NCBI GenBank assembly: GCA_025963965.1
Contig: JAOPZS010000134.1
Location: 1 to 64,000, forward strand
Source of the DNA: Solirubrobacterales bacterium
GTDB lineage: Bacteria; Actinomycetota; Thermoleophilia; Solirubrobacterales; Solirubrobacteraceae
Direction: 5' to 3'
Length of the DNA stretch: 64,000 nucleotides
Position numbers and translations under genes: made by a program. Shown here one piece after another: positions 14,458-31,091 of the stretch. Positions within the stretch are counted from its first letter, which is position 1, and each line of letters opens with the position of its first letter. The notes below the pieces were generated by a model. It was given only the letters and a program-made list of their open reading frames with translations. It did not search any database and had not been told where the DNA came from.

Positions 14458-14531
<74 letters not shown>

Positions 14532-30162: not shown

Positions 30163-30389
30163 TAATCTGGCGAGACCAGAGAAAGGAGGTGGTCCAAACG
30201 TCAGGTGACAGTTTTTGCGGGACCCTGGAGGTGACCGGCCGGTAGGTCGGGAGGCTGGTCCGCCTAGCGGAATCCAACCCGGGACACCCCGAGACGGCTG
30301 CCGGTCCTGGTCCCTCCGGCTGAACCACCGCCGCTCTCGGTCTTTCCAGTCAGAGCAGCAAGCGAAGGGCGCCCTCCGGGGCGCCCTTC
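30163..30389 (+). ncRNA. candidate autonomous structured RNA / leader element: -10-like TAATCT, hyper-SD AGAAAGGAGGTGGTCC, short ORF with ACG, stem-loops, terminal hairpin
   Basis: TAATCT 30163-30168; AGAAAGGAGGTGGTCC 30180-30195; stems 30259-30263/30267-30271, 30289-30298/30330-30340, 30300-30304/30316-30320; 11-bp hairpin 30364-30389. Confidence 0.55.
30364..30389 (+). terminator. hairpin GAAGGGCGCCC-TCCG-GGGCGCCCTTC (11-bp perfect stem)
   Basis: perfect inverted repeat with a 4-nt loop in the intergenic region. Confidence 0.65.
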
Positions 30390-30461: not shown

Positions 30462-31091
30462 CTAGGCCGCCTGCGGCAGGTACTGCAGCCAGGCCTGCGG
30501 GATCGTCGGGCTGGCGACGTGGATGAAGATCTCGGCGCGCGGGGTGCGCGGCGCGCGCCGGGGGTGCATGCCGGCCTGCCGCGGAAGGCGGTCGGCCTTG
30601 CGGCGGTTGCAGGGCGCGCACGACGCGACGATGTTCTCCCAGCTCGACGAGCCGCCCTTCGATCGCGGGATCACGTGGTCGACGGTCAGGTTCGAGCGCG
30701 AGCCGCAGTACTGGCAGGTCCAGCTGTCGCGCGCGAACACGGCGCGCCGCGTGATCTTTCGACGGTGCGCGTCGCGTGGCACGTTCACGTAGGTGACGAG
30801 GCGGATCACGACCGGCCGGGCGACCGTCGAGCTCTCCGAGTGCAGCTCCCAGCGCCCCCGCTCGACCAGCTCGGCCTTGTCCTTCAGCAGCAGCACGACC
30901 GCGCGGCGCACCGTGCAGACGTTGATCGGCGCATACGTCGCGTTGAGAACGAGCACCCGACCACCGATCGCCGTGCGAGGCGACGTCTCAGGCCCGTGCC
31001 GCTGGTGCTCTGAGGGCGGCACGGACCCCACCGGCTCGGGTGGGATCGCGCTCTCCATCTTCGCGCCGGAGTGTAGCGGGCAAAACCGCAT
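30462..31091 (-). CDS. HNH endonuclease family protein (start at 31058 possibly preferred)
   Basis: VLNATYAPINVCTVRRAVVLLLKDKAELVE; CQYCGSRSNLTVDHVIPRSKGGSSSWENIVASCAPCNRRKADR. Confidence 0.92.
   Translation of the reverse strand: MRFCPLHSGAKMESAIPPEPVGSVPPSEHQRHGPETSPRTAIGGRVLVLNATYAPINVCTVRRAVVLLLKDKAELVERGRWELHSESSTVARPVVIRLVTYVNVPRDAHRRKITRRAVFARDSWTCQYCGSRSNLTVDHVIPRSKGGSSSWENIVASCAPCNRRKADRLPRQAGMHPRRAPRTPRAEIFIHVASPTIPQAWLQYLPQAA

Follow-up and report, generated by a model that had tools for sequence, protein, structure and literature searches.

Ms_IGR-5 (RF02471) is a family of small RNAs (sRNAs) distributed across the actinobacteria, including mycobacteria and streptomycetes, and no function is given for it in the papers that we found. 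In leader-peptide attenuators of the trp and erm type, a short open reading frame (ORF) overlaps competing helices, and the position of the ribosome selects the fold. The RNA described here resembles these attenuators in its overlap of ORF and helices but has no regulated gene in cis. Dual-function sRNAs such as SgrS/SgrT and SR1/SR1P encode peptides with a function of their own (PMC11133741); the Ms_IGR-5 family likewise combines a small RNA with an ORF, but here the ORF is kept and the peptide is not. In the Flavobacteriales, the extended Shine–Dalgarno (SD) sequence of rpsU, the gene for ribosomal protein bS21, has been studied as a case of regulation by ribosomes without bS21 (PMC9976891). 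The unusually long SD is common to both systems, which differ in that rpsU carries it in the leader of a protein gene and Ms_IGR-5 on a free RNA with a mini-ORF. Family members are validated transcripts in S. lividans (PMC8079986) and in S. avermitilis, where the RNA was seen as an sRNA transcription unit (PMC8780764). In M. abscessus and M. smegmatis, ribosome footprints were recorded over Ms_IGR-5, with the caution that most non-coding RNAs show footprints (PMC4974804); we regard them as weak evidence for translation. This RNA goes unmentioned in a survey of sRNAs that encode peptides (PMC5521070), and the literature searched, whose coverage leaves out most subscription papers, yielded neither a description of an ORF in Ms_IGR-5 nor another published name for the RNA.

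We analyzed a window of 64,000 nt from a Solirubrobacterales contig, in which positions 30174–30389 of the forward strand make up a discrete RNA gene of about 215 nt with a −10 box, complementarity to the 16S rRNA tail at its 5' end, nested stems and a terminator. Every element that a previous sequence-only reading had described between 30163 and 30389 is present. The −10 box is TAATCT (30163–30168). Of 244 distinct homologues, 171 have a TANNNT motif that begins 22–23 nt ahead of GGAGG, and 178 have one within 19–25 nt, compared with 1–6 homologues in control windows. Given this conserved position, transcription of the gene probably starts near 30174–30175. The unit closes with a terminator-like hairpin of 11 bp (30364–30389), and relatives have a similar hairpin in the same place. 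A resemblance of this terminator to STnc320 was discarded as a GC-rich hairpin match, present on both strands.

At the Rfam gathering score, the only match in the whole window is a tRNA gene (14458–14531, reverse strand). A permissive search aligned the segment end to end with RF02471 (model positions 1–184 of 184) at 22.8 bits (E = 0.0044), below the gathering threshold of 45 bits, with the same 5' SD block, helix order and hairpin loop. Sub-threshold matches at E ≤ 1, mostly single-copy, recur in 48 of 61 close relatives, none of which passes 45 bits; across the phylum, 51 of 199 genomes match at E ≤ 0.01 and 20 exceed the cut-off. With a model (R1) derived from 45 homologues and covering their 5' domain, homologues were found in 158 of 398 phylum genomes, with one copy per genome in all but one genome among the matches listed, and sequence conservation of the segment extends to 71 of 81 relatives (a few through the terminator hairpin alone) as well as across the phylum. 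The conservation that the sequence-only reading had suggested looking for is thus present at both levels. A DNA pattern scan led to named loci in Mycobacterium, Mycobacteroides, Rhodococcus, Frankia, Micromonospora, Amycolatopsis, Nocardioides and Cellulomonas, and all 12 of those tested score 68–179 bits against RF02471. Because the window aligns with the model over its full length and intermediates link it to these named loci, common descent applies to the entire element, and the window RNA is by sequence comparison a divergent homologue of Ms_IGR-5 ("actinobacterial sRNA") below the Rfam membership threshold. The known actinobacterial RNA family that had been suspected therefore exists. Many phylum genomes are without an R1 match, and the control genome of Corynebacterium glutamicum gave no match to RF02471. 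A phage origin was rejected: three pattern matches in viral contigs were without the remainder of the element and seem fortuitous, and no match occurred in phage records.

The 5' end of the RNA carries an extended SD, AGAAAGGAGGTGGTCC (30180–30195), whose core is kept in all homologues. It matches the complement of the 16S tail at 15 of 16 positions, the sixteenth pair being G-U. With G or A allowed at the wobble position, this 16-mer has a single site in the 3.03-Mb assembly, and the second-best site has 2 mismatches. A 16S gene was not detectable in the window's own assembly; the 3' tail GGATCACCTCCTTTCT was recovered in 12 relatives, 2 of them from the same genus, and on this ground we take the complementarity to be real. 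The match proposed from the letters alone thus stands, and with a unique site in the assembly it exceeds chance.

Behind this SD, the family carries a phylum-wide mini-ORF with a very strong ribosome-binding site, a feature newly described here. All 168 phylum homologues have a stop codon at a nearly constant spacing behind the GAGGTG block, closing a frame in which a standard or near-cognate start stands 5–13 nt past GGAGG. An independent set of 76 named sequences was picked with a pattern that leaves both start and stop free; in all 76, an ATG, GTG or TTG opens an unbroken frame to that stop. For the 244 distinct homologues, whose relatedness inflates all such counts, a standard start occurs in frame in 205 sequences, compared with 5 and 8 in the other two frames; when near-cognate codons are included, the numbers are 244 versus 49 and 25. 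The stop is TAG, TGA or TAA, with swaps among the three in many separate families, and TGG, expected about 22 times if the positions varied independently, was never observed; in one homologue (L172), the stop lies one codon later. The ORF spans 10–15 codons and begins with TTG (126), ATG (59), GTG (20) or one of ATC, ACG, CTG, ATT and ATA (39 together, including the ACG of the window).

In the window, the mini-ORF occupies 30198–30245 on the forward strand, with the candidate start ACG (30198–30200) 8 nt past GGAGG, 15 codons and a TAG stop (30243–30245), that is, the ACG-to-TAG frame of 16 codons including the stop that had been read from the sequence. Of the 22 members of the window's genus, 14 carry a TTG at +10/+11, in frame and one codon past the ACG position; the other 8, the window among them, lack it and all have ACG at +8, which makes ACG a reasonable candidate and initiation there plausible. 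We also considered a four-codon minigene beginning at the conserved GTG of GAGGTG and rejected it: in families f5, f8, f51 and f65 the stop is out of frame with that GTG and in frame instead with a start in the SD-proximal loop, and elsewhere, too, an upstream start is in frame. An RNA filed as non-coding thus seems, from its conserved features, to be made for translation. Together, the conserved SD and the conserved reading frame, whose phase the sequence-only reading had picked correctly, give strong support to a ribosome-engaging small RNA, and we hold family membership and the mini-ORF, taken jointly, with high confidence.

The mini-ORF lies within covarying helices: P0, P2 and a pseudoknot all run over its codons. 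RNAalifold, run on sequences aligned with MAFFT, positioned P0, P1 and P2 poorly in places, and our tests used motif-anchored counts; the kinship of the sequences is not factored into these covariation numbers. Helix P0 pairs CCAG (30176–30179) with CTGG (30225–30228), and the SD lies between P0 and P1. Its three variable pairs are formed in 240, 241 and 226 of 243 sequences, as A-U, C-G, G-C and U-A, and the adjacent position is paired at background level (76/243); 166 paired cells were observed, against 81 ± 7 when the 3' strands were dealt out anew. Helix P1 joins GGTCC (30191–30195) to GGACC (30220–30224); it is paired in 92% with little covariation, and its 5' strand faces the 16S tail as well. 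Pair counting in alignment A1 gave 94.2% paired cells for P0 and P1 together, compared with 20–51% for slid strands. The long-range helix P2 pairs GGTG-A-CCGG (30230–30238), inside the last ORF codons, with CCGG-GA-CACC (30279–30288), and 635 of its 744 cells are paired versus 547 ± 7 after swapping. Between the strands of P2 stands hairpin P3, TGGTCCGC-CTA-GCGGAATCCA (30256–30276; core TCCGC-CTA-GCGGA, 30259–30271), visible in the letters and recurrent in relatives. Helix P4 (30289–30340) pairs CCGAGACGGC (30289–30298) with GCCGCTCTCGG (30330–30340), a stem that by eye recurs with other sequences in relatives, and encloses hairpin P5 (GCCGG/CCGGC, 30300–30320), whose stem covaries.

The P5 loop GGTCCC (30309–30314) is the pseudoknot partner of the ORF segment GGGACC (30219–30224). 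Five or more pairs form in 142 of 205 sequences, versus 83 (maximum 100) after swapping, and compensating combinations include GGAUG/CAUCC, GUGACC/GGUCAC and GCGACC/GGUCGC. In two separate genera (L124 and L165), a change of GGAC to GGAU in the ORF is accompanied by CAUCC in the P5 loop, a clean compensation. Because P1 draws on the same bases of the ORF as the pseudoknot, only one of the two can form at a time. P0, P2 and the pseudoknot are accordingly supported by comparison of homologues; a single-sequence fold of the window favours a different structure, so the model rests on covariation. In families f5 and f8, P4, P5 and the pseudoknot are missing, which reduces the core to P0, SD, ORF and P2. 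In f5, f8, f51 and f65, P4/P5 and the pseudoknot loop appear absent, and the terminator directly follows the CACC strand of P2. The RF02471 entry describes an sRNA with the first 13 model positions unpaired; the ORF, P0 and the pseudoknot are additions of the present analysis.

Building on the family, its distribution, the promoter position, the SD, the ORF, P0, P2 and the pseudoknot, all of which emerge from comparison, we infer that ribosomes may flip the fold, and we assign a probability of about 0.5 to a stand-alone RNA in which translation of its own ORF determines the working state. A 30S subunit would be drawn to the unusually long SD between P0 and P1 at the 5' end of the transcript and would initiate on an ORF of 10–15 codons, in most cases from a weak start, which is TTG in the largest number of sequences and ACG in the window. 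Since the ORF codons are themselves strands of P0, P1, the pseudoknot and P2, a ribosome translating to the conserved stop and terminating there would have to melt all of them, and the helices would re-form once no ribosome is present. The RNA would alternate between a ribosome-loaded and a folded state, with an effect in trans that follows the state: C-rich 3' segments might be freed for pairing, the stability of the RNA might change, or 30S subunits might be held. A more specific version, possible but doubtful in our judgement, is that the mini-ORF exists only for translation and that the weak start and maximal SD flip a pseudoknotted RNA acting as a trans-acting sensor of initiation that reads either free 30S subunits or the fidelity of initiation factors. 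Should translation be the switch, bacteria would have a new way to read ribosome status through a free RNA. Since the family keeps a frame, a helix at the 5' end, a pseudoknot and a very long SD but no peptide, the function of Ms_IGR-5 can be tested in laboratory strains by single-codon changes.

Several other accounts have to be weighed against translation as the switch. The RNA might act in trans as a conventional antisense sRNA, with translation merely shielding it from decay and the C-rich 3' segments (CACC and the GGTCC loop) pairing regardless of the ribosome; its Rfam class, the sRNA transcription unit in S. avermitilis (PMC8780764) and the stand-alone gene with a terminator all fit. 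We nevertheless consider this unlikely, as it leaves unexplained why start, stop and ORF helix strands are kept jointly throughout the phylum, and in the covariation model these 3' segments are not free but paired. A 30S decoy, in which a long SD and a weak start hold small subunits and occupancy rather than translation is the function, would account for the 16-nt complementarity that is unique in the assembly and for the weak starts (TTG in 126 and non-standard codons in 39 of 244). Such a decoy needs no in-frame stop, yet the stop is kept in 244 of 244 sequences, and it would require a very abundant RNA; we rate it as improbable. Still less credible is an mRNA for a functional micropeptide of 10–15 residues, despite the conserved ORF and a pattern, xxxRTREVA(A/V)R, that recurs in the actinomycete set. 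For the 12-codon ORFs, the synonymous share of changes is 33% in frame versus 30% and 18% in the other frames, which is no excess and no codon-level signal, and the recurring residues sit on paired RNA. Moreover, in ten sequences of f5, f8, f51 and f65 (L175, L176, L186, L189, L191, L197 and L199–L202), the frame is moved by one relative to GAGGTG, start and stop having moved together, so that these sequences read the RNA block in a different phase. The mini-ORF is thus kept while the encoded peptide, as judged from these sequences, is not conserved, and for this reason a functional peptide is not supported. Of the non-canonically initiated peptide proposed earlier, the ACG start (present in 8 of 8 genus members without TTG) is plausible and the functional product is not supported.

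A leader or attenuator of a downstream gene, the other proposal of the sequence-only reading, would suit the combination of a short ORF, competing helices and a terminator, but is highly improbable given the neighbourhood. The next gene in the window (30465–31052, HNH by Pfam) is convergent to the RNA gene. Members of the window's class usually have gyrA upstream of the RNA gene and a convergent HNH gene downstream; in other lineages we take the neighbours, from reading the sequences, to be YgfZ-, PabC- or FABP-type genes or ligA. Neighbours vary by lineage throughout the phylum and are often on the opposite strand, and no conserved same-strand gene directly downstream was found in the phylum comparison. 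Because the neighbours differ between lineages, we regard the gene as free-standing and reject a leader for either HNH or gyrA. What endures of the earlier interpretation is the known RNA family, at a sub-threshold score, and the engagement of ribosomes; the leader or attenuator and the functional peptide are not supported. Between gyrA and the RNA gene, the window also contains a CAP/SCP-domain gene (PF00188; 29315–30118), seemingly confined to some members of the group; many relatives have the end of gyrA about 55–170 nt upstream of the SD.
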